Part shown: piece by piece, positions 5,470 to 26,106 of the stretch | Position numbering within the stretch: the stretch's first letter is position 1 | Layout: the number at the start of each line of letters is the position of its first letter | IMG/VR virus record: IMGVR_UViG_3300028383_000177 | Coordinates: 1-26,106 of that record | Reading direction: 5' to 3' (one strand) | Origin: a virus | DNA length: 26,106 nt | Notes under the pieces: generated by a model | Told to the model about the DNA's origin: nothing | Database searches by the model: none | What the model saw: only the letters and a program-made list of their open reading frames with translations | Position numbers and translations under genes: made by a program

Positions 5470-8400
5470 CTAACGGGTAATATTACGGGACCGGGTGTAT
5501 CTATCTTTGTTCTTCTCAGAGATTTCAGCGATAACCTTTCCATCAGCCGTAATCTTAACGTTCTGATTTCGGCGTAGTCGCTTGATTTCGTTCCTGACTT
5601 CGTCCATACTGACCGAGAGGTCATTGAACTCAGACGTAAGTGCTTGAGCAATCGATTGAGCAAGCGAGTCTTCATCTGTTCCATCCAAAATCTCTGAGCC
5701 GCCACCTGAGACGTTTAGTTCAACAGAGGTCCCACCAGTCATATCGGGCGTCGAAGGCGTGTTGATAAGGCTCTCAAGCCGACTGAGAGGCAACACAGCT
5801 TCGGACTCTGCACCTTCTCCTATTAGTGCCCGTGTGGGACCGGTTACAATTCCACCCGTAGCGAGGGGGACGTTTCTCACTAAGTCACCCACGAAGTTAC
5901 CAAACCGATTTTCCTCAAATTCAATTTCGGGAACGGTGATGTTATCAGCAAGGTCTATGAAAGGAAGTTGGAACCTGAACTCATCGACCTCTATGAAAGG
6001 AAGGTCGAACCTTGATTCACTGACGTTAATATCAGGTATATCAACATCAACGTCGGGGATGTCGAAATCGAGATAATCCGCAATTTCAAACTCTCCAAAA
6101 CCCGGCTCGTCGATATAACTGTCAATGTCAAATTCTCCGAAGCCCGGCTCGTCGATATAACTATCAATGTCAAACTCTCCAAAGTCGGGTTCGGTAATGT
6201 AGTCTATTAGGTCTATGTCGGGGAAGTCGATAATATCTCTCGCGGCGGTAATCCCACCCTCAACGTAGTTTGAGAGCGAGCCGATTCCACTACTTACGTA
6301 ATCAGAAAGCGACCCAATCCCTCTACTCACATATTCGTCGAGGTTGATTGAACCACTGACATAGTTCGCAAAGTCATCTATCGAGACGTTGTTTATGAAG
6401 TCAGAAGCCGCGCTTAAGACGTCGTTCTTCAAGTCCGAGGCGGAATTTCTGACATCAGAAGCTAAGTCTGAAGCGGAGTTCCTAACGTTAGAAGCTAAGT
6501 CTGAAGCGGAACTCTGAACGTCGTTAAGGAATCCATTGGCCGATTCCTGTATATCCGAAAGGAAACCGGAAGCGGCTGTGACAACATCTGACTTCAAGTC
6601 ACTTGCCGCCGAGGTCACGTCGTTCTTGAGGTTATTTGCCCCTGAGACAATATCGTTCTTCAGATTTGAAGCGCCCTGTAAGACACCGTCTTTGAAGTCT
6701 TTAGCACCATTCACGACGTCATTCTTAAACTCGTTAGCTCCACTTACGATGTCATTTTTGAAGTCTTTGGCACCCTGAATGATGTCTTCTTTCAAGTCTT
6801 TCGCTGACTGTATAACGTCTTGTTTAAAATCAGAAGCCGAATTTACCACGTCTTCTTTAAAGTCCGAAGCGGCGCTTGTAATATCGTCTTTCAGATTGGA
6901 AGCTCCATTGACAATGTCGTTTTTGAGGTCCTCAGCACCCTCTATAATATCATCCTTAACATCTTCTGCACCGTCGACTACATCAGTGAAGAACTCGTCG
7001 GCTCCTTTGACGACTGTATCGTATAGCTCACTTCCCGCTTCACGTATTCGAGAGGTGACGTCTCCTAATACATCGCCACCGAACTTCACGATTTTCTCTT
7101 TCAACTCTTGTAGGAACTTCACGATGTCTTCCCACGTAATGTCCATTAGAGCATTATAGAACTCGATTGCTTTGACAGCAAACAACCCGAGTAGTGTGAA
7201 GAATGGAGAGAAGGACTCCAACACAGGCAAGATGTAGTTCATTAGCGTGCTCACAATGTCGCCTAAGAACTCTTGAGCACCGCTCACAGATAGATTCGAG
7301 AGCATACCGGGGACTTGAGTCAACCAACCTAAGAAGCCGACTCCGGCCTGATACAACTTTGTGAGAAGCCACGTAAGCGGACTGAAGGCTTCGACGCCCG
7401 GTAGGATTGCTGTGATAGCGAGAGTGAGAAGGTCTATGATAGCGATAGCCTGACCGACTACGGGGATTAGATACGCGAGACGTCCGGTCAAAAACTTCGT
7501 AATCGCCGTCAATCCGATTTTACTAAGTATGGCCTTTCCACTGATAGACGGAAGGAAACGTCCGAGAAGTGCTCCAACACTCGGGACTCTCGAAGCGACA
7601 GAAGCGAATATTCTACTCAACCCACTTCGGATAGTAGCCCCAATACTAACTTTCCCGAGTTGAAGACCGAGTCGTTTGTTCAGTATAGAGGCTATCATCG
7701 TAGTTCTCGGGAACAAAAACTTAGCAATCGATGAACCGGCGATTTTCCCTATCGCTGAACGAAGAACTCCGCTAATCAGACTCTTCGTTATAGCGGCTCC
7801 GAGAGCAATCCTAAATGCGTCGGCAATGCCGAACTCTCTATCTGTTCCGAATACAGCACTCGTAGCCAATCCTTCTATCAACCGCCGAGCTAACCACCCC
7901 AAAGCGACGATGATTCCTTCGTTATTGAATACGGTATTGAACCCCGCCGCAAGTCTAAGAGCCGCTGAAGCTATGGGAAGTAAGTACCGACCGAGAATAT
8001 TTCCGAAGGGTCGGAAGAACAACCCCATAGCCATACTGAACATATCGACAACGGTCGACAGTAGCGGTGAGTTTTTGACTGTACTCGAAGCGATTTGACC
8101 GAGTAAGAGTAAGCCGAGTCCGGCGAGTGCTACTTTACCACCTTTGCCTTTGAATGTCCGACCGAGTGTATTGAGGATGGCACTGACGCTTTGCTGTTGA
8201 GCGACCATCTCAACGAGTCCGGCGGCTTGTTCTCTCGATGCAGAAGTAAGCCGACCGAATCCATCATCAAGACGGCTTTTAACATCACCGAGAGCATTAA
8301 CCATATTCTCAAGCCGTCCTTCAGTGAGTTCTGATTGGCGAGGGTCGAAGCCTTCACCTTGAGGCGTAGAAGACTGTGTGAATAAGACGTCTTGTGCAAA

Positions 8401-8676
8401 ACCACCTGTAGAAAGTTCCTCAAGCACATCGGTGTCAAAGTTATCGATAGTATCCTGCATATCCGAAAAGTTGCTTGAGGCGGATTTCGTATGCTCTGAG
8501 ACGTTCTCAACTTGTTCTTTCATATCCTCCATTTGGTCGGAGACTTCGGATATATCGACACTGAACTCGATGTCGCTAACCGCGTCTTCAAGCTGAGACT
8601 TGAAAGCTGAGGCTTCCCGCTTTGCTGAACGCTCGTCTACTTTCGGCGTGACTTTAGCGGTAAGCCCTATCTCCAT
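5470..8676 (-). CDS. Tape measure protein
   Basis: 1068 residues, the longest complete tail gene. Residues 1-75 are charged coiled coil. About 165-540 are strongly hydrophobic helices (LAGLGLLLLGQIA, LGLFAVKAIEF), as in tape measures that contact the host membrane. About 556-764 consist of 19 eleven-residue units. About 825-865 have three 14-residue units, followed by related RFxLPFI segments. Near the C-terminus the phrase ATGGIVTGPTRALIGEGAES and then AVLPLSRL is the usual tape-measure tail motif (GG-V-GPT-ALIGE-G--E-V-PLS). It fixes tail length and is threaded through the tube. It follows the chaperone block as expected, though one other gene intervenes. Assignment is secure from length, hydrophobic core, repeats and C-terminal motif. 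Confidence 0.9.
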   Translation of the reverse strand: MEIGLTAKVTPKVDERSAKREASAFKSQLEDAVSDIEFSVDISEVSDQMEDMKEQVENVSEHTKSASSNFSDMQDTIDNFDTDVLEELSTGGFAQDVLFTQSSTPQGEGFDPRQSELTEGRLENMVNALGDVKSRLDDGFGRLTSASREQAAGLVEMVAQQQSVSAILNTLGRTFKGKGGKVALAGLGLLLLGQIASSTVKNSPLLSTVVDMFSMAMGLFFRPFGNILGRYLLPIASAALRLAAGFNTVFNNEGIIVALGWLARRLIEGLATSAVFGTDREFGIADAFRIALGAAITKSLISGVLRSAIGKIAGSSIAKFLFPRTTMIASILNKRLGLQLGKVSIGATIRSGLSRIFASVASRVPSVGALLGRFLPSISGKAILSKIGLTAITKFLTGRLAYLIPVVGQAIAIIDLLTLAITAILPGVEAFSPLTWLLTKLYQAGVGFLGWLTQVPGMLSNLSVSGAQEFLGDIVSTLMNYILPVLESFSPFFTLLGLFAVKAIEFYNALMDITWEDIVKFLQELKEKIVKFGGDVLGDVTSRIREAGSELYDTVVKGADEFFTDVVDGAEDVKDDIIEGAEDLKNDIVNGASNLKDDITSAASDFKEDVVNSASDFKQDVIQSAKDLKEDIIQGAKDFKNDIVSGANEFKNDVVNGAKDFKDGVLQGASNLKNDIVSGANNLKNDVTSAASDLKSDVVTAASGFLSDIQESANGFLNDVQSSASDLASNVRNSASDLASDVRNSASDLKNDVLSAASDFINNVSIDDFANYVSGSINLDEYVSRGIGSLSDYVSSGIGSLSNYVEGGITAARDIIDFPDIDLIDYITEPDFGEFDIDSYIDEPGFGEFDIDSYIDEPGFGEFEIADYLDFDIPDVDVDIPDINVSESRFDLPFIEVDEFRFQLPFIDLADNITVPEIEFEENRFGNFVGDLVRNVPLATGGIVTGPTRALIGEGAESEAVLPLSRLESLINTPSTPDMTGGTSVELNVSGGGSEILDGTDEDSLAQSIAQALTSEFNDLSVSMDEVRNEIKRLRRNQNVKITADGKVIAEISEKNKDRYTRSRNITR
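6085..6210 (-). repeat. Three 14-residue (42-bp) repeats inside tape measure
   Basis: Tandem units YITEPDFGEFDIDS, YIDEPGFGEFDIDS and YIDEPGFGEFEIAD. Unlike the hendecads, the second and third units are almost identical in DNA (the plus strand shows cccggctcgtcgatataact twice), which indicates a recent duplication or slippage. The strongly acidic, aromatic, non-helical composition suggests an extended linker before the C-terminal domain. Confidence 0.8.
6385..7011 (-). repeat. Nineteen 11-residue (33-bp) repeats inside tape measure
   Basis: Consecutive units of pattern x-G/S-A-x-D/N-L/F-K-x-D-V/I-x, for example EGAEDLKNDIV, NGASNLKDDIT, SAASDFKEDVV and QSAKDLKEDII. The 11-residue spacing predicts a long, slightly right-handed (hendecad) amphipathic coiled coil. 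Codons differ from unit to unit although the protein pattern is kept, so the array is old or under selection for protein sequence. The last units lose Lys (SSASDLASNVR), showing gradual divergence. Confidence 0.85.
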
Positions 8677-8727: not shown

Positions 8728-9762
8728 TCAGAGATTCAAGAGTCTCTCGAAGAAGCCCTGTTCGTCTTCCGTTGTTTCTTCTTCTTCATTACCCGGAGCG
8801 TTCAACTCGGTTGCGGATGGAGCGTTTCCAATATCTACCTCAATCCGATACTCAACGACATTCGGATTGCCACTTACGAAAGTCGAAGAGGAATCAGATA
8901 CAGCACAGGGATTTGCTCTCGCTGTAATAGAATCGAACAGTATTGCTTGCTCTCCGTGAATATCGAGTTCAATCTCCGAGGCTACTGTTTCCAAACTTTT
9001 CGACGTTTGTTGGTCAGCGATACGACCCTCAACATTAACAGACTCTTTTACACCTGATTCAATCGCGGCGATATTGACAGCGTCTTTCTTTTCTTGTTGG
9101 TGTATGAGGTCACTGATATTGAGGTTAATATCTCGCTCTCTTCGCATTTTTGTAACTTCTCCGAGTTCGATTAACGTAGAAGCGGTCTGTATGGTAGTAA
9201 ACTCTTTATCGAAATTTGTGACCTTATCTTTTTGTGAATCTACGTATCTCTTTCTGTTAGTAGTGTTTTGAACGCCGTCAGCAACTTGACCCGACAATGA
9301 CCAACTCCCACGAAATCCCTCTCCCGAAGTATATTCGTGAGTAACGTTGTCGAAGATAACACCGAAGGATTCCGATGTCGGTTCAAAAACTTCATCTCGT
9401 ATTTTATCATCAATTCTGTTGCCCTGACCCTGTTCAGGCATTACAAGCGACTCAAGAAGAAATGCGTATAATCGATATGCGTTCTCAGGTGTATAATCTA
9501 TATCGGAGTAGTTGGGGAGAAACTCTCGATTTCTTCTCAAGAAAGACCCCTGTATAGTACCACTTGCACGAATTGACTGTTGACCCGCTATGGGAGCAAG
9601 AAGTGTATCTTGCGAATCTTGAGTCGGTATATCTTGTGGTTGCGTGTCTGTTTCAGTGGTTACAGTGGATTCTTCTGAGAAATATAACGGCGTTGTCGGA
9701 CCAGTAAGCGAACCATCTTCAGCCGAAATTGGTCCGTCGATTAGGATTGGTGGGGTGGACAT
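8728..9762 (-). CDS. Tail protein of unknown function between chaperone and tape measure
   Basis: 344 residues. The N-terminus is proline- and threonine-rich (ISAEDGSLTGPTTPLYF). Residues 60-180 contain aromatic beta segments and a charged helical stretch (RKRYVDSQKDKVTNFDKEF). Residues 190-260 are helical. The C-terminus after residue 320 is a very acidic tail ending QGFFERLLNL. I do not recognise a family. In most siphoviruses the tape measure directly follows the chaperone, so an extra 1-kb gene here is unusual. Its ATG follows the stop of the frameshifted chaperone frame by one base (TAG-T-ATG), so it belongs to the tail operon. It may be a tail-tip or tape-measure-associated protein (inference). 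Confidence 0.55.
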   Translation of the reverse strand: MSTPPILIDGPISAEDGSLTGPTTPLYFSEESTVTTETDTQPQDIPTQDSQDTLLAPIAGQQSIRASGTIQGSFLRRNREFLPNYSDIDYTPENAYRLYAFLLESLVMPEQGQGNRIDDKIRDEVFEPTSESFGVIFDNVTHEYTSGEGFRGSWSLSGQVADGVQNTTNRKRYVDSQKDKVTNFDKEFTTIQTASTLIELGEVTKMRRERDINLNISDLIHQQEKKDAVNIAAIESGVKESVNVEGRIADQQTSKSLETVASEIELDIHGEQAILFDSITARANPCAVSDSSSTFVSGNPNVVEYRIEVDIGNAPSATELNAPGNEEEETTEDEQGFFERLLNL

Positions 9763-9763
9763 A

Positions 9764-9961
9764 CTACATATTACTCAGCACTTCGGATATAGCCTCTCCG
9801 ACTGCACCCTTGATTAAATCCTTGTGTTGCTCAACGGTGTCTTCTACGTACTCATTAAACGCGAGGACATCTTTGACCGGTATCGTATGGGGATTTAGAT
9901 TAGCCCAATACATCAACCGGCATTTCAATACTTGAAGTTCATCTCTTCTTTCAACGACGAG
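9764..9961 (-). CDS. Second frame of tail assembly chaperone (gpT-like, by -1 frameshift)
   Basis: This frame is open from just before the slippery heptamer to the stop at 9764-9766. Its last in-frame stop upstream lies only a few codons before the heptamer. Read by a -1 slip at 9961-9967 it adds 65 residues (LVVERRDELQVLKCRLMYWA and onward, ending AISEVLSNM) to the first 213 residues of the upstream gene, giving a 278-residue product. This matches the known gpG/gpGT arrangement of tail assembly chaperones, in which the minor fusion binds tape measure and tail tube. An internal ATG at 9913 could instead start a free 49-residue protein. No good Shine-Dalgarno precedes that ATG, so frameshifting is preferred. 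Confidence 0.65.
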   Translation of the reverse strand, partial: LVVERRDELQVLKCRLMYWANLNPHTIPVKDVLAFNEYVEDTVEQHKDLIKGAVGEAISEVLSNM

Positions 9962-10599
9962 TTTCCCATTTCAGTATCACCCGTCGTATTGATAGCGTCG
10001 ACACGCTCAAACAGCCACTCGCCTACCGGAATTGGATAGTCTCCGGCGACGGGACTCTCACGCCCAAACTCTTCACGAGAGGGCGCTCCGGGCGGCCAAT
10101 CTTCGATAGCTTCATTCAGAAGCTCAGTCTGATAGAATCCCTGACGGGGTGTTCCGTCGATGTCTTCGTTCTGTATATCGACGTCGAACGACTCTTCCAT
10201 CATATCGTCAGAGACTCGCTGAAGTTGACCGAAGGTAAGTTCTCGAACCGTAATGACACACGAATCTTCGTCGGCATATCGCTCGTCTATCTCCGCCTGA
10301 TAGTCGTCTGTTTCACGTCGTAGCTCATTCGGGTCAAGTTCGTTATTCCACAGCACAACCGTCTCTTTGAACTTATTTTGTTCTCCCGAGAGTTCTGTCT
10401 TTTCGGCTTCAAGGCTTTCCCATCGGGACTCGAACTCTTCCCATCGGTCAAGGTCTTCAATATCTTCAGCGTCAGAGTCAGAGAAGGTAGACTCAAGTTG
10501 CCGTTTGACTTCTTCTTGTTCAGATTCGATTTGAGAAAGTCGTTCTCGGAGTTCTTCAATTCGGTCGACGAGGTCAAGACGGCGAGTGCTAAGTGCCAT
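9925..10599 (-). CDS. Tail assembly chaperone, zero-frame product (gpG-like)
   Basis: 224 residues, very acidic. Residues 1-90 form a long charged coiled coil (LVDRIEELRERLSQIESEQE, WESLEAEKTELSGEQNKFKE). Residues 105-224 form a compact domain (VITVRELTFGQLQRVSDDMM, LLNEAIEDWPPGAP) resembling phage proteins placed between tail tube and tape measure, where 'reltfgq' is typical. It probably coats the hydrophobic tape measure during tail assembly. It follows the tail tube gene by 38 bases, and its 3' end contains the frameshift site for the longer product. Identification rests on gene order, size and the frameshift signal. The long N-terminal coiled coil is unusual for the family. Confidence 0.7.
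   Translation of the reverse strand: MALSTRRLDLVDRIEELRERLSQIESEQEEVKRQLESTFSDSDAEDIEDLDRWEEFESRWESLEAEKTELSGEQNKFKETVVLWNNELDPNELRRETDDYQAEIDERYADEDSCVITVRELTFGQLQRVSDDMMEESFDVDIQNEDIDGTPRQGFYQTELLNEAIEDWPPGAPSREEFGRESPVAGDYPIPVGEWLFERVDAINTTGDTEMGNSSLKEEMNFKY
9961..9967 (-). promoter_or_regulatory. -1 ribosomal frameshift slippery site G GGA AAC
   Basis: On the minus strand the zero-frame codons are ATG GGA AAC TCG, so the heptamer is in the exact X XXY YYZ register for simultaneous -1 slippage. It is 34 bases before the zero-frame stop (9925-9927). The -1 frame has a TGA immediately upstream and is open downstream. No strong downstream hairpin is visible; only weak TTGAA/TTCAA pairings are possible. 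Many phage G/GT sites also lack a strong stimulator. Confidence 0.7.
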
Positions 10600-10637: not shown

Positions 10638-11675
10638 TTATGGCGGTGTTTCTTCGTCGCTTTCGACCGTGACATCTATAGACCGAACAATACGGTCGAT
10701 GTCTTCTTCAAGAGCCGCTGTGGGGTCGCCAACATTACTACGACTGTAGGAATCAGGAAAAGCACCCGTCATACCAACAGTCATAGCGTTCGTCTTAGCA
10801 GACGTCGCGTCGAACGTAAGTTCCCCTTCAAGGTCATTAGCGTCAGACATTGAGTCCGGGATACTCGTTGCGGAAGCCGAACCATACGCTGAAACTTGTT
10901 CATCAGCCGTACTATTCGAGTCGATAAGCTTCGTGTATGAAAGGTCAGGCTCAAACTGAAGGAACGACGGGGTCGCAACAATCCGCGTTCCGAGTTCACG
11001 CTCTCCCTCAGCGTTAGACTCGAATGAAATCGAAGCGTCCTGAACAAGCGCTTCAGCGTCAACCGTGCCACTACCCGTAATATCGAGACTTAGAAGCGAG
11101 TTCCCGAAGTGGAGAGGGCGGTACTCACGGTTGGGTTGCTGTCCAATCTGACCAATCGGACTCGCTGAAGCGTCTTCGTAGTATTCTTCGTTAGCGTATG
11201 TTGCATCAAGGCTCACAGTGACCGTGTCTTCGACACTTACATCGACGTCAACGGAAGAAGCGAACACTCCCGTGTAGACAGTCTGTTCGACCGAGCCATC
11301 TTTGTAGTGCGTCTCTTCGACGACGTGAGCCGTTCGTGGCGGATTCCCGTTTGATAGGTTGTATGTGTGAGTGTAAGGTTCCTCTGAGCCTTCTGTGGTC
11401 GGTTGTCCGAAGATGAACTGAAGCCACCACGTATTAGCGAGAGTCCACTCAGCACCGAGAGAGCCATCGAAGGCTCCTTCGAGAACCGTGTCAGCCTCTC
11501 GGGAGAACGGTTGGAACATACGTTCCGCGTTGTTTGAACGGTCGATAGCGTCAGCGGTAACATTAGCACCGAAGGTTTTGAAGTCGGTGTCTGTCGGACC
11601 ATCCGGACTTTGATTGTATGAGCCGTCGTCTTCCCATACGTAAGCCCAAATAGTATCCGCGCCGGTTACTGTCAT
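10638..11675 (-). CDS. Major tail tube protein
   Basis: 345 residues, beta-rich and lacking Cys. The start (MTVTGADTIWAYVWEDDGSY), the FQPFSREADTVLEGAFDGSL segment, TWWLQFIFG and the long beta part (SSVDVDVSVEDTVTVSLDAT) are typical of tail tube subunits, with an extra C-terminal immunoglobulin-like part ending in an acidic tail (VTVESDEETPP). It polymerises into hexameric rings to form the tube. Gene order supports this: neck and tail terminator genes come before, chaperone and tape measure after. Its stop is three bases from a small hairpin, consistent with high expression. Confidence 0.75.
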   Translation of the reverse strand: MTVTGADTIWAYVWEDDGSYNQSPDGPTDTDFKTFGANVTADAIDRSNNAERMFQPFSREADTVLEGAFDGSLGAEWTLANTWWLQFIFGQPTTEGSEEPYTHTYNLSNGNPPRTAHVVEETHYKDGSVEQTVYTGVFASSVDVDVSVEDTVTVSLDATYANEEYYEDASASPIGQIGQQPNREYRPLHFGNSLLSLDITGSGTVDAEALVQDASISFESNAEGERELGTRIVATPSFLQFEPDLSYTKLIDSNSTADEQVSAYGSASATSIPDSMSDANDLEGELTFDATSAKTNAMTVGMTGAFPDSYSRSNVGDPTAALEEDIDRIVRSIDVTVESDEETPP

Positions 11676-19267: not shown

Positions 19268-19335
19268 ACTAACGAAATATTATGGCTACTGAGAGAGGAT
19301 TTATCTCCCTACGAGCCACAAAACAAGGTGAGTGT

Positions 19336-20607
19336 ATGTCAATACACGACAGATTCACGAAGCGACAACGCGAGGTCTTGAGCCTACTTCCCGCTTCAAA
19401 AGAACAACTTGCACAGAAACTGTCTGTTGCTCAACCCACCGTAGAGGGACACATAGGCAACATTAGACGAGAACTCGAAGACGAAGAAGCCGTTGTATTC
19501 GACCGTGCTACAGAAGAATACATAATCGGCAATCCTGAGCTTAGAAATACAGAGTTCAACGAAGTAATATCACCCCCGAACTCAACATCAAAATCGGATA
19601 ACGCTAAGAAACAAGAAGGGGGTGACATCGAAAGGCCGCCCGGACTCATTGACCAACTCAAAAATGAAGGACTGACGTATCAAGAAATAACCGAAGAATA
19701 CGACGTCACGACCCGAGCGGCCCAACGACTTCTACAGAAAATACGAGAAGAAGGATTCAAGATAGAGTTCAAAGAGACGGGGAATAACGGACAGCGGATA
19801 TTCTATATCCCGGATGAATCCGGAAAGAGATTCAAATTCGGTGATGGAGACGGCACCTACAACATAGCCGTTATTTCCGATACTCACCTCGGAAGCTCAG
19901 AACAGAAACTTGAAGAACTCAATGACTTCTACGATAGAGTCGCTGAACGAGATGTCGACTTCGTCCTTCACTGTGGAGACATCAGCGACGGATGGAAGAT
20001 ATACAGGGGTCATATTAACGAAGTCATTGGTGAAGCCTCAGGGTGGAAGCGGCTTCGACGCTACGTAATCGAAAACTACCCACAGCGAGACGGAATTGAG
20101 ACGTTTTTCATCTCCGGAAATCACGACCACAAACTCCACAAACGAAGTGGTCTATACTTCGGAGAGAGCATAGCTAATGTCCGAGACGACCTTCACTGGC
20201 TCGGAGACTCACAAGCCACAGTCGTCTTAGACGCCGAGAACGACATCGACATCGAAATGATTCACCCGGACGGTGGACAGCCCTACACAGTCGGCTATCG
20301 GCTTCAGACGCTATACAGAGAGCGAGGATTAGATAAGCGACCGACAATCGCTCTTGTAGGCCACCTTCACGGTTCGATGTATGCAAAGACCGAAGGCGTC
20401 TTCGGATTCTACGCTGGCTGTTGGAAAGGGACTACGACATACGGGAAGAGAAAAGGTCACGAAGCGACCATCGGCGGTTGGTTCCTGAACCTTGAAATCG
20501 AAGACGGCGTTATCCGACGTCTGAATCCCGAATGGATAGACTACAGTGACTCAGAAGAAGAAACCGGTCAGTTCGATATACAGGACATCGAAGAAATGAC
20601 TGAGTAA
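19336..20607 (+). CDS. HTH-fused calcineurin-like metallophosphoesterase
   Basis: 423 residues from ATG 19336, preceded by AAGGTGAGTGT. An in-frame ATG at 19282 would add 18 residues, but it lies upstream of the predicted transcription start, so 19336 is preferred. Residues 5-65 are a winged-helix domain (FTKRQREVLSLLPASKEQLA, PTVEGHIGNIRREL). About 103-160 form a second HTH (LTYQEITEEYDVTTRAAQRL). From 175 on, the metal motifs are complete: D182-x-H184 (SDTHLG), G214-D215 (CGDISDG), GNHDH 261-265, H310 and GHLHG 342-346. So it should be an active two-metal phosphoesterase guided by DNA-binding domains. It is convergent with, and abuts, the next gene (TAA|TCA). Substrate unknown: nucleic acid or nucleotide. 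Confidence 0.85.
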   Translation: MSIHDRFTKRQREVLSLLPASKEQLAQKLSVAQPTVEGHIGNIRRELEDEEAVVFDRATEEYIIGNPELRNTEFNEVISPPNSTSKSDNAKKQEGGDIERPPGLIDQLKNEGLTYQEITEEYDVTTRAAQRLLQKIREEGFKIEFKETGNNGQRIFYIPDESGKRFKFGDGDGTYNIAVISDTHLGSSEQKLEELNDFYDRVAERDVDFVLHCGDISDGWKIYRGHINEVIGEASGWKRLRRYVIENYPQRDGIETFFISGNHDHKLHKRSGLYFGESIANVRDDLHWLGDSQATVVLDAENDIDIEMIHPDGGQPYTVGYRLQTLYRERGLDKRPTIALVGHLHGSMYAKTEGVFGFYAGCWKGTTTYGKRKGHEATIGGWFLNLEIEDGVIRRLNPEWIDYSDSEEETGQFDIQDIEEMTE

Positions 20608-22228: not shown

Positions 22229-22336
22229 TTACTCTTCTGAAGACCGTCCAGCGTCGATAATTTCTTCGATGGTTCTATCACAGGCCACACATACACCATC
22301 TTGCAACTCACAAACGCCGATACAAGGAGAGTCCAT
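22229..22336 (-). CDS. DUF1289-like Cys-rich small protein
   Basis: 35 residues beginning MDSPCIGVCELQDGVCVACD, then RTIEEIIDAG. The SPCIGVC...G.C.aC.RT..EI pattern is that of the DUF1289 family, which in bacteria reads S-P-C-x-x-x-C-...-C-x-G-C-x-R-T-x-x-E-I; here the glycine before the last Cys is Ala. Four Cys probably bind zinc or an Fe-S cluster. Its ATG overlaps the stop of the MuF gene by one base (TAATG). Function of the family is not established. Confidence 0.7.
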   Translation of the reverse strand: MDSPCIGVCELQDGVCVACDRTIEEIIDAGRSSEE

Positions 22337-25300
22337 TAGTCAACCCTCTCTAAGGTATGTCGACACTCGAAATGGGGTATGTATTCCTCTACACGCGAGG
22401 GCGTGCCACCCTCCGACCGATACTCTCGGGCCTTCTCTCGAAGCACGTCCTGAAGGACGTCAAGGGGGACCTGTCCACCACGACGCTCAATCTCTTCTTT
22501 CGTTTCCTCGCATATCTTCGTCGTATTGGCGTCGTCGGGTCCAACCCAATCATACTCCCACATTTCATCTTGTGGTTCAGCCGCACGGAACATCACAGAC
22601 TTTGCTGTATTGAGCACAGCGGCGACTTCCATACGAGCGATTTTCTCCGACTGACGTTTGTCCATCCAATCGAACTCGTTACGAATCCGTTTCGCCACAG
22701 AGTTCGTCGACCACCCCTGAGGCTGTGTGAGAGACGCTTTGACCTCTTCTTCGACCTTTTGGGCGGCGAGGTATGGGACGCCTTTGTAATCGCCGTGTAA
22801 CGGGTCTAATTGTTCGACGACGATACTCACATAGTCTTTGACGGTCTTCGAGACGTCTTCGTTTCCTTCCCACGTTCGTGGAGCCTTCGAGAGGTCGTCG
22901 GGCCACACTTGTTTCTCATACGTCTCTGTAAGGAGCGTGAGGACGTCGTCAGACCGTTTCATCACCGAGTCGGGTATCTTCTCGGCTGTGCTCTTCCAAT
23001 CGACGAGGTACTGATTGTCGACTTCTTGTTTGTAGTATAGCCCCGTGTCTTCGTCGTGACTGACGATAGTATCTTGAGGGGCTTGACGAACGCCGTTGAC
23101 GCTTATCTTCTTAACAGTCTTCTCTTTACGAACAGCGTCAACAGTGACGCGAGAGACGACAGTTTCCGCGCCGACTGTGTCTTCTTTTCTAAGGTCCTTA
23201 GGCGGAGTTACTCGTCGGGCGACTCGTCCTCTGAATCTATTGTACTTTCTATTCCCTCCGTCACCGCCTCGGTGAAGGACTCCTCCATCCACTCCATTAT
23301 TTCGCTTCTCGTTGCGTCGGGTCCGGGCTTTTCCATTACTACTACCTCCAAATGTAAGTACGTCTTCTATAGTCTTATTGGTTCCGGTTTCTTCAATATC
23401 CCATCCGAAGAACTGACTGTAGAACTTGAGTAGGTCTTCACCGACCTTAATCGGCTCAGGTGCATTACCCCACTCAACGTCATTATCGAACACGCCGACT
23501 TTCTCGTCAGGGATTTCCGCTTCTTCTACAATCGTATCGAATGAGTCTTGAGAAGCACTTACGGCACCTTCAATGAACTCAAGTGGAGTAAACCGTCCCT
23601 CGTCGTAGAATCTTCCAACCGCGTTAAACGCCGCTTTCTCTTTGGGGACACCAACGAAAGAAGCCCTAATATCGTAGCCCTTCTCTTCCATCGAGTCTAT
23701 CATATCCATCGTAGAGTCAGGGCTTGTAGCGACTTTGTCGATAATGACGTTGTGTTCATCCTCGAACGCTCTCGGAGCGAGGTTATCTTTCGCCATCTTC
23801 GACGCTTCGTCGTGGACTTCAGAAGCGTTTGTCTCGTTGTACTCGGGAATCGGCTCTTTCGTTCGGTCAGATGAAATAGCCGTGAACTCTCGTTCAGCGA
23901 ACTCTCCCGTTTCGCCGTATTCGCCTTCTTCGACCTGTTCTTGCCACCATCCTTTTCCGGCCCCCGGAGGGCCGAGAAGAATCATACCGATAGGTTGCTC
24001 GTCTTCGTCAGTCGCGGCATTTTCGTTGAGCAATTCCTCAGACCATTCTTTGTGTTTTTCGAGCCTTTCTTCGTCCCAATTCCCCTCTTCGTCTGTATAC
24101 TCGTTTTCGGTGTTATCGTCTCCGAAGAACGACTTGTCGAAAGCGTCAGCGCCTTCTCCGAACCACTCAGTGTCTTGTAGTTCCGTTTTGTACTCTTGAA
24201 ACTCTTCTTCGTCGTCGGGACGTTCCCACAAGACCGGGTGTCCTTCCGAACCGATAGCCGTTGACCGTTGTTCGGGGGTGAGGGGTCCGGGGGTATCAGG
24301 GACTTTCCCGTGTTCAGTGTCGACGTAGTCTTCTTGAGATTCTTCGTCGGCTTCGGTGCTCGCGTCGTCGGGGTCTTCTACGTCTCGTTCTCCGGCGGCA
24401 CCTCGTGGAGAGACGGCGTATCGTCCTTGTTCAGGGCCTTCTACGACTTCGTGTCCTTCGGGCGGGTCTTCTCCGGGTCTAAGGTATTCAGCGTCGTCGG
24501 GGACGCCTTCGGGGTTATCTTTTTGGGTCAAGTCTATGTCACCGAGTTGTTCCTGTAATTGACTAATACGCTCTTCATAAATTAACTGTCCGAACTCTTC
24601 ACCGCTAATCTCAGCCCCAATATCACTTCCATCTATCCCACGCTCTTCCATCACGTATGAACCGTCGATTTCATCTATGACATTGAGTGCCGACTCCACG
24701 CCGTTACGAACAGTCGCGCCGTAATCCGAGTCATACAACGACCCGAATATCTCTTCCAATGCGTCGATGTCAATAGAATCCCCACTATCTATTCTTTCTC
24801 CCAATCCAATCAAGTCCTGAACTTCGACCGACTCCTTACCGTTCATCTCAGCACCGAACTTGACGTAGTCTTCTTCTTCGTTGCTAAGACGATGTTCTCC
24901 GATAAACTCGTCCGAGTCGTCTTCAAGGCCAGCGCCAATACCCGAGTAGAGAACGTTCGTGTCGTCGCTGTTTGACCGAAAGCTTTCCATCGAGTCTCGG
25001 ACGGACTGTAGTTTTGTTTCGACAACAGGGAACGATTCGGATATGACGTCAAGTTCGTCAAGGACCTCAAAGAACCGACCGGGGTCGTCGGCTTGCTTCA
25101 TCGTTTTCTCCAATTCCTTTTTGGCTCGCTCGTCGGGGAGTTGTTCGACTCCCTCTTTCATACCCTCGGCAAGGTCATAGATTTCGTCTCCAACGTCCAA
25201 ATTGAAGCGTGGAGCGAATCTTGCGGTTCGGAAGAGGCGTACAGGGTCTTCATCAAATGCGTCCGTCACAGGCCGTATCTCGCGGTCTAAGAGCGATTGG

Positions 25301-26106
25301 TTCCCGTCGTGTGGGTCAACCATCTCACCGTCACGGGCGTTAACAGCAATAGCGCCGAGAGTCATATCACGACGTTCTAAATCAATGTCTAAGGCTTCCT
25401 CAACCGATTTATCTGAGCTAACAACTTCGGCTTCAAAGTCAGAAAAACCCGGTCCTGTAGACTCTTCACGACGTGGGAGAGCAACCTCACGTCCCTGACT
25501 ATCTAAAAACACCGGGAAGTCAGACTCAGTATCTATGTACTCCATACGCTCGGATAGCGCGTCGACTGAGTCTTCGATTGAATCATCTTCAGGAATCGCC
25601 ATTAGGTCAATATCCTCAGGCGACTCTCCTAACAAGTGGTCACGAACAGCGCCACCAACGATGAAGGGGGCGAATCCGTCGAACTCGTCTCCGATTTCTA
25701 CTTCATCGACCATTTGGTCACGAAGACGCCGCTCTTTCATCTCACCGAACTCTTGAATCGTCTCAGCTTCTTCCCCTTCGAGTGTATCGGCTAAGACAAA
25801 GGCTTCTCTGTGAGTGAGCGGTTCGGATTCATCAGTTTCGAGACTGTCAACCGCTTTCTCTAATTCCGATTGCTTTGCTTTTTCTCCCGGCGTCTCGAAG
25901 TCTGTATTCTCTATAGTATCCCTAACATCGGAAACCACGTTTTCCGAATTTACAGTTTCCAAAACCTCTGACTCTTCGTCTGTAGTTTGCTCTTGAGGAC
26001 TCTCGTCTTTGGGGTAATAGAACGTTCCACCGTATTTCCCCGTTTGCACTTCGACGTCGTCGGGTGCATCTTCAGGATGGTCAACGTAGACCCGAGATTT
26101 TCGAGT
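22336..26106 (-). CDS. Nucleotidyltransferase / zeta-kinase / MuF head protein, N-terminus beyond right edge
   Basis: The frame is open across the right edge (VYVDHPEDAPDDVEVQTGKY precedes a GTG at 26049, which is therefore not the start); 1256 residues are visible. (1) Class II CCA-adding/poly(A) polymerase-like domain about 25680-25100: VGGAVRDHLLG at 25659-25627, catalytic DID at 25614-25606, ERRDMTLGAIAVN near 25375, EDPVRLFRTARF near 25250. (2) Zeta-toxin-like kinase about 24000-23500: GPPGAGKG at 23973-23950, SSDRTKEPIPEY, VHDEASKMA, NVIIDK and RFYDEGRFTP. (3) Mu F/SPP1 gp7-type head domain about 22850-22339: KIARMEVAAVLNTAKSVMFR, WVGPDDANTTKIC, PHFECRHTL. Segments DAPDDVEVQTGKYGG and DPPEGHEVVEGPEQGRY are two copies of one linker motif. 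A basic linker (23337-23200) separates parts 2 and 3. The MuF part should be packaged in the head. Confidence 0.8.
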   Translation of the reverse strand, partial: TRKSRVYVDHPEDAPDDVEVQTGKYGGTFYYPKDESPQEQTTDEESEVLETVNSENVVSDVRDTIENTDFETPGEKAKQSELEKAVDSLETDESEPLTHREAFVLADTLEGEEAETIQEFGEMKERRLRDQMVDEVEIGDEFDGFAPFIVGGAVRDHLLGESPEDIDLMAIPEDDSIEDSVDALSERMEYIDTESDFPVFLDSQGREVALPRREESTGPGFSDFEAEVVSSDKSVEEALDIDLERRDMTLGAIAVNARDGEMVDPHDGNQSLLDREIRPVTDAFDEDPVRLFRTARFAPRFNLDVGDEIYDLAEGMKEGVEQLPDERAKKELEKTMKQADDPGRFFEVLDELDVISESFPVVETKLQSVRDSMESFRSNSDDTNVLYSGIGAGLEDDSDEFIGEHRLSNEEEDYVKFGAEMNGKESVEVQDLIGLGERIDSGDSIDIDALEEIFGSLYDSDYGATVRNGVESALNVIDEIDGSYVMEERGIDGSDIGAEISGEEFGQLIYEERISQLQEQLGDIDLTQKDNPEGVPDDAEYLRPGEDPPEGHEVVEGPEQGRYAVSPRGAAGERDVEDPDDASTEADEESQEDYVDTEHGKVPDTPGPLTPEQRSTAIGSEGHPVLWERPDDEEEFQEYKTELQDTEWFGEGADAFDKSFFGDDNTENEYTDEEGNWDEERLEKHKEWSEELLNENAATDEDEQPIGMILLGPPGAGKGWWQEQVEEGEYGETGEFAEREFTAISSDRTKEPIPEYNETNASEVHDEASKMAKDNLAPRAFEDEHNVIIDKVATSPDSTMDMIDSMEEKGYDIRASFVGVPKEKAAFNAVGRFYDEGRFTPLEFIEGAVSASQDSFDTIVEEAEIPDEKVGVFDNDVEWGNAPEPIKVGEDLLKFYSQFFGWDIEETGTNKTIEDVLTFGGSSNGKARTRRNEKRNNGVDGGVLHRGGDGGNRKYNRFRGRVARRVTPPKDLRKEDTVGAETVVSRVTVDAVRKEKTVKKISVNGVRQAPQDTIVSHDEDTGLYYKQEVDNQYLVDWKSTAEKIPDSVMKRSDDVLTLLTETYEKQVWPDDLSKAPRTWEGNEDVSKTVKDYVSIVVEQLDPLHGDYKGVPYLAAQKVEEEVKASLTQPQGWSTNSVAKRIRNEFDWMDKRQSEKIARMEVAAVLNTAKSVMFRAAEPQDEMWEYDWVGPDDANTTKICEETKEEIERRGGQVPLDVLQDVLREKAREYRSEGGTPSRVEEYIPHFECRHTLERVD
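23208..23336 (-). CDS. Possible 42-residue ORF, or true N-terminus of MuF gene, in another frame
   Basis: An ATG at 23336 is preceded by GGAGGTAGTAGTA, a perfect Shine-Dalgarno at ideal spacing. It reads MEKPGPDATRSEIMEWMEES and ends EDESPDE, typical acidic haloarchaeal protein. Over exactly this stretch the long frame reads the basic KARTRRNEKRNNG...RGRVARR, unlike the rest of the proteome. Either it is a gene overprinted in a linker, or it is the start of a separate MuF gene whose frame is broken near 23210 by an indel, read error or recoding. The frame change would be -1 to rejoin the long frame. Confidence 0.4.
   Translation of the reverse strand: MEKPGPDATRSEIMEWMEESFTEAVTEGIESTIDSEDESPDE

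Follow-up and report, generated by a model that had tools for sequence, protein, structure and literature searches.

Genes and features at the locus

The window, i.e., the whole stretch of DNA analyzed here, is a virus record of 26,106 bases. Its major capsid protein is 60-62% identical, over 93% of the length, to those of HCTV-1, HVTV-1, and HCTV-5, all three of which are members of the Druskaviridae. Judged by this protein and by the head/tail module, the window is from a Druskaviridae-like tailed haloarchaeal virus. The features of the tail region considered below all lie on the minus strand:

10638..11675, minus strand: tail tube protein gene (Pfam Phage_tube_2; 36% identity to the HCTV-1/HCTV-16 counterpart)
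9764..10599, minus strand: predicted G-T fusion of 278 aa, from the reading-frame layout
9925..10599, minus strand: zero-frame ORF of the predicted tail assembly chaperone (G-like, 224 aa; 34% identity to the annotated HCTV-1 chaperone)
9976..9982, minus strand: Shine-Dalgarno (SD)-like GGGUGAU, its end 8 nt upstream of the heptamer; may be a lineage-specific stimulator
9961..9967, minus strand: in-register slippery heptamer G_GGA_AAC; each of the nine lineages examined has GGGAAAN here
9764..9961, minus strand: extension in the -1 frame (T-like, 65 aa, followed by the stop TAG at 9766-9764; dN/dS 0.07 vs. L024; predicted to be helical with modest confidence)
8728..9762, minus strand: gene of 344 aa without a family match, following the T extension and preceding the tape measure gene
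5470..8676, minus strand: gene for the tape measure protein of 1,068 aa (matches PHROG profiles for tape measures with E 1.9e-29)

The chaperone gene directly follows the tail tube gene, whose counterpart in HCTV-16 carries a tail tube annotation, and lies upstream of the tape measure gene, whose product partially matches the HCTV-1 tape measure. The first-pass annotation of this DNA had described the gene order as that of lambda G/GT. The order is lambda-like overall, but the 344-aa gene (9762-8728) is inserted before the tape measure gene. Distant homologs of this gene are found at the same place in the related contig L028 (E 4e-14) and in HCTV-1 (E 1e-8), and an extra gene before the tape measure gene is also present in L039, but not at that place in HVTV-1 or HCTV-5.

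The zero-frame ORF runs from 10599 to 9925 and ends with a TGA at 9927-9925. In the -1 frame, the last stop before the heptamer is located at 9973-9971, and the frame then stays open until the TAG at 9766-9764. The heptamer G_GGA_AAC (9967 to 9961) is positioned between the final -1 stop and the zero-frame stop, where the two frames overlap by 15 codons, and it has the correct X_XXY_YYZ register, the zero-frame codons being ATG GGA AAC. A -1 slip at this site is predicted to give a product of 278 aa instead of 224 aa, with the junction ...TEMGN to LVVERRDELQ... and an extension of 65 residues. The exact register, the position between the two stops, and both product lengths had been reported in the first-pass annotation, and all of them were reproduced from the sequence. 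The main genes of the window comprise 6,424 codons and contain four X_XXY_YYZ sites in register (Y = A/T), and the probability of finding at least one canonical in-register heptamer within the 15-codon overlap is approximately 0.009 (about 0.9%). A single one of the four sites, the G_GGA_AAC at 9967-9961, opens a -1 frame that runs beyond the zero-frame stop.

Comparison with other two-frame chaperones

The chaperones of HCTV-1 (gp122/gp123) and HCTV-16 (gp127/gp126), both of the Druskaviridae (Hacavirus), share 34% identity with the zero-frame protein over 99%. In each of these two virus records, a short chaperone is entered alongside one joined from two pieces, and the HCTV-16 record carries the note "putative programmed translational -1 frameshift." Both viruses have the identical G_GGA_AAC, a homologous zero-frame protein and extension, and the same gene order as the window (tail tube, chaperone, extra gene, tape measure). 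They differ from the window in the length of the chaperone (189 aa vs. 224 aa), in the distance from the start of the heptamer to the end of the zero-frame stop (37 nt vs. 43 nt), in an additional small annotated ORF after T, and in lacking as strong an upstream SD-like element as that of the window. The slip site of HCTV-1 is listed as G_GGA_AAC in a 2016 review (PMC5009743).

HVTV-1 (gp129/gp130) and HCTV-5 (gp128/gp129), of the Druskaviridae genus Tredecimvirus, are also annotated with joined chaperones, and their -1 frameshift site, GGGAAAG, occupies the corresponding place in the genome. No sequence similarity to the window's proteins was found for their chaperone and its 122-aa extension; in addition, their A-site codon is AAG, whereas that of the window is AAC, and their tape measure gene follows directly. 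A further parallel is phage lambda, the heptamer of which is G_GGA_AAG. The lambda G/GT pair is produced by a -1 slip that occurs at a low rate toward the end of the chaperone gene, with the tape measure gene downstream (PMC5009743). The window differs from lambda by the extra gene before the tape measure gene, by the A-site codon AAC, and by the archaeal ribosome, and the likeness shown here is one of layout. By layout and heptamer, the window can also be likened to the haloviral chaperone pair HrrHc1_110/115 of Hardycor1, which has G_GGA_AAT at the -1 slip position (PMC7911831).

Conservation of the heptamer among relatives

Relatives were gathered by three queries, namely the chaperone, the tail tube protein, and the major capsid protein. 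The count given here covers the loci that reach through the interval between the tail tube and tape measure genes; the loci without a match end before this interval. An in-register GGGAAAN is found at the end of the chaperone gene in 9/9 lineages sharing the major capsid protein. The heptamer is GGGAAAC in six lineages, among them L024/L012 (the closest relatives, at 84% for the tail tube), L001/L016, L002/L018, HCTV-1/HCTV-16, and the near-identical contigs L027/L028/L030/L033. It is GGGAAAT in two, L039 and L013/L014, and GGGAAAG in one, HVTV-1/HCTV-5; the chaperones of L013/L014 and of HVTV-1/HCTV-5 are not recognizably similar to that of the window. A search for relatives with the downstream ORF but no heptamer gave none, GGGAAAN being present in every relative that covers the interval. 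A pattern scan for chaperone relatives in bacterial and archaeal genome contigs returned none, a negative of limited weight, since a scan of this kind also missed the close relative L024.

The position of the heptamer within the gene shows one outlier. In L013/L014, only 10 nt separate GGGAAAT from the end of the zero-frame stop codon, far fewer than the 37-49 nt elsewhere (L013 15842-16264, plus strand).

Coding constraint and start codons of the -1 extension

The substitution rates of the zero frame and the -1 extension were compared between the window and L024. The zero frame has a pN of 0.123 and a pS of 0.689, the -1 extension has a pN of 0.101 and a pS of 0.646, and the dN/dS is 0.07 in both cases. 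As a control, the other two frames across the extension show no comparable excess in this pair. Purifying selection on the -1 extension is thus as strong as on the zero frame. Synonymous sites have reached saturation in most other pairs, which are less informative for dN/dS. The extension aligns through all seven relatives, with only two invariant columns.

A constrained downstream frame might instead encode a separate small protein that is translated from an internal start, in which case the heptamer would be incidental. Start codons are indeed available in the window, which taken alone would allow a free product, with TTG at 33 nt and 45 nt and ATG at 48 nt past the heptamer, and most relatives likewise have a start codon approximately 30-80 nt past it. 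The free product of 49 residues considered in the first-pass annotation corresponds to a start at this ATG, which the two TTG codons precede. However, the position of the start within the extension is not conserved, and the heptamer is kept where synonymous sites are near saturation. In L039, the extension of 59 codons contains no ATG, GTG, or TTG anywhere, and a separate start therefore fails as an explanation there; in L028, the first start codon occurs 117 nt into the extension, past much of the domain. On the evidence of L039 and L028, a free start of the -1 ORF was discarded as an explanation for the group as a whole. In these two lineages, non-standard starts aside, the extension domain would be reachable essentially by frameshifting only, and parsimony extends this reading to the window. 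The start-less extension of L039 is the cleanest comparative evidence found here for access by frameshifting only, and we consider an internal start very unlikely to be the explanation for the locus.

Codon usage at the predicted slip site

The heptamer could also be conserved merely through the protein motif (M/L)-G-N, the overlap of the two frames having then arisen by chance. All seven homologous chaperones have G212 and N213, which lie inside a conserved NT-G-T-MGNSSL stretch, as would be expected from such a constraint. Of the 25 residues that do not vary among these seven proteins (Met and Trp excluded), however, GGA212 alone keeps a single codon throughout, whereas the other four invariant glycine positions use three to four codons each. 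The probability of GGA in all nine lineages, given genome codon usage, is 2.9e-6, a rough figure that assumes independence despite shared ancestry; the codon comparison within the chaperones is the better control. Furthermore, the unrelated-looking chaperones of HVTV-1 and L013 keep GGGAAAN with different flanking residues and a different Z base. Across the lineages the Z base varies among C, T, and G, and in HVTV-1 the amino acid is altered as well, which is expected of a slip site rather than of protein constraint. The constraint on the -1 extension also speaks against a chance overlap. On the codon comparison at invariant residues, the idea that selection on the G-N residues alone preserves the heptamer was rejected, and the combination of a protein motif with a fortuitous overlap appears highly improbable. 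That a sequencing or assembly error, or polymerase slippage in transcription, stands in for ribosomal slippage is scarcely credible, as the two-frame layout recurs in independent contigs and cultured isolates and the three-base runs in GGG AAA are short for slippage by a polymerase.

Candidate stimulatory elements

Folds of 60 nt and 86 nt past the heptamer have shuffle z-scores from approximately -1.5 to +1.1, and the consensus fold of the downstream alignment reaches only -1.4 kcal/mol with an unfavorable covariation term. On these single-sequence and consensus folds, a downstream stem-loop was rejected as a conserved stimulator. Upstream of the heptamer, GGGUGAU can pair with AUCACCU, which we take to be the archaeal anti-SD sequence at the 3' end of the 16S rRNA. 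The duplex has a free energy of -9.4 kcal/mol, and only 1% of gene positions are as good, although this candidate was tested after the sequence had been inspected. The window, L024, and L002 have a strong upstream SD-like element, some other lineages have a moderate one, and L001 and L028 have none. The element may raise the slip rate in this lineage, but it is not a defining part of the site.

Protein structure and chaperone assignment

The AlphaFold2 model of the G protein has a mean pLDDT of 80 and consists of a long helical hairpin at the N terminus, followed by a C-terminal domain. Among viral models, its best structural neighbor is the HCTV-1 chaperone, and a weak match to a Gordonia phage chaperone was also obtained. 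No significant match was found in a fold search of the G model against solved structures, and a profile search against solved structures returned coiled-coil matches only. The window protein does not match a chaperone profile, and phrog_344 is matched, weakly, by two relatives only (HCTV-1, E 7e-4; L039, E 0.034). The predicted chaperone function is thus assigned mainly by position, by the two-frame layout, and by homology to the chaperones of HCTV-1 and HCTV-16, the annotations of which are themselves predictions.

Proposed expression of the chaperone gene

The proposal of the first-pass annotation, a -1 frameshift in a tail assembly chaperone, is supported by the homology to HCTV-1/HCTV-16, the conservation of the heptamer, the constraint on the extension, and the start-less extension of L039. 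We consider it highly likely that the chaperone gene of this Druskaviridae-like virus is expressed as two proteins via a -1 slip at G_GGA_AAC, and the site is very probably a real, well-conserved, and functional programmed -1 frameshift. Most ribosomes would make the 224-aa G-like protein. A minority would reach G_GGA_AAC with tRNA-Gly in the P site and tRNA-Asn in the A site, slip back by one base to GGG AAA, and go on to make the G-T fusion of 278 aa. If lambda is a guide, G would coat the tape measure protein and the T extension would recruit the tail tube subunits. The register, conservation, extension constraint, gene context, and homology were observed in this analysis; from them we infer slippage in the cell, its rate, and the chaperone role.

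Frameshifted chaperones were already annotated in HCTV-1 (with the same heptamer), HCTV-16, HVTV-1, and HCTV-5, and what is new here is another lineage, an independent and uncultured one, among the haloviral cases. The first-pass annotation had regarded the locus as a test case for a process little documented in archaea. The Saccharolobus fucosidase is the only experimentally established archaeal -1 frameshift in the reviews (PMC8211752). The locus is less novel than had been supposed, since the identical G_GGA_AAC of HCTV-1 is published (PMC5009743). The reviews grade the haloviral cases as apparent or very likely (PMC5009743, PMC8211752), and a literature search found no direct experimental proof of frameshifting in related haloviruses, the evidence for HVTV-1 and HCTV-1 being available via reviews.

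A broader idea, which we hold only tentatively and think rather unlikely, is that archaeal ribosomes with an AAC (Asn) codon in the A site slip efficiently in the absence of any downstream RNA structure, aided in some lineages by an upstream SD-like GGGUGAU, with one virus family using AAC, AAT, and AAG in one and the same slip position. If true, A-site preferences of the eukaryotic and the bacterial type would be combined in a distinct archaeal flavor of -1 frameshifting. In the comparative set, the slip site is constant, and the third-codon base (C, T, G), the upstream SD-like element, and the downstream sequence vary. With such a set, what archaeal -1 frameshifting requires can be put to a direct test.

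Other observations on the window

The tape measure protein, with 1,068 aa, is longer than that of HCTV-1 (620 aa), and its repetitive middle matches apolipoprotein-like helical repeats. The length of the tape measure suggests that the tail of this virus is longer than that of HCTV-1.

A single continuous ORF of 1,237 aa, read from a GTG, occupies 22336-26049 (minus strand) and has three regions, i.e., a tRNA nucleotidyltransferase (approximately residues 129-502), a Zeta-toxin-type kinase (674-857), and a Mu gpF-like head domain (1097-1183). HCTV-1 and HVTV-1 have separate annotated genes for the Zeta and gpF-like parts. For the nucleotidyltransferase part, no phage record matching at least 80% of it was found, and its best-scoring haloviral match is a stand-alone gene of Halogranum tailed virus 1. 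At 19282-20607, an ORF of 441 aa lies on the plus strand, opposite to the surrounding head/tail genes, and has weak matches to metallo-phosphoesterases and DNA repair exonucleases.
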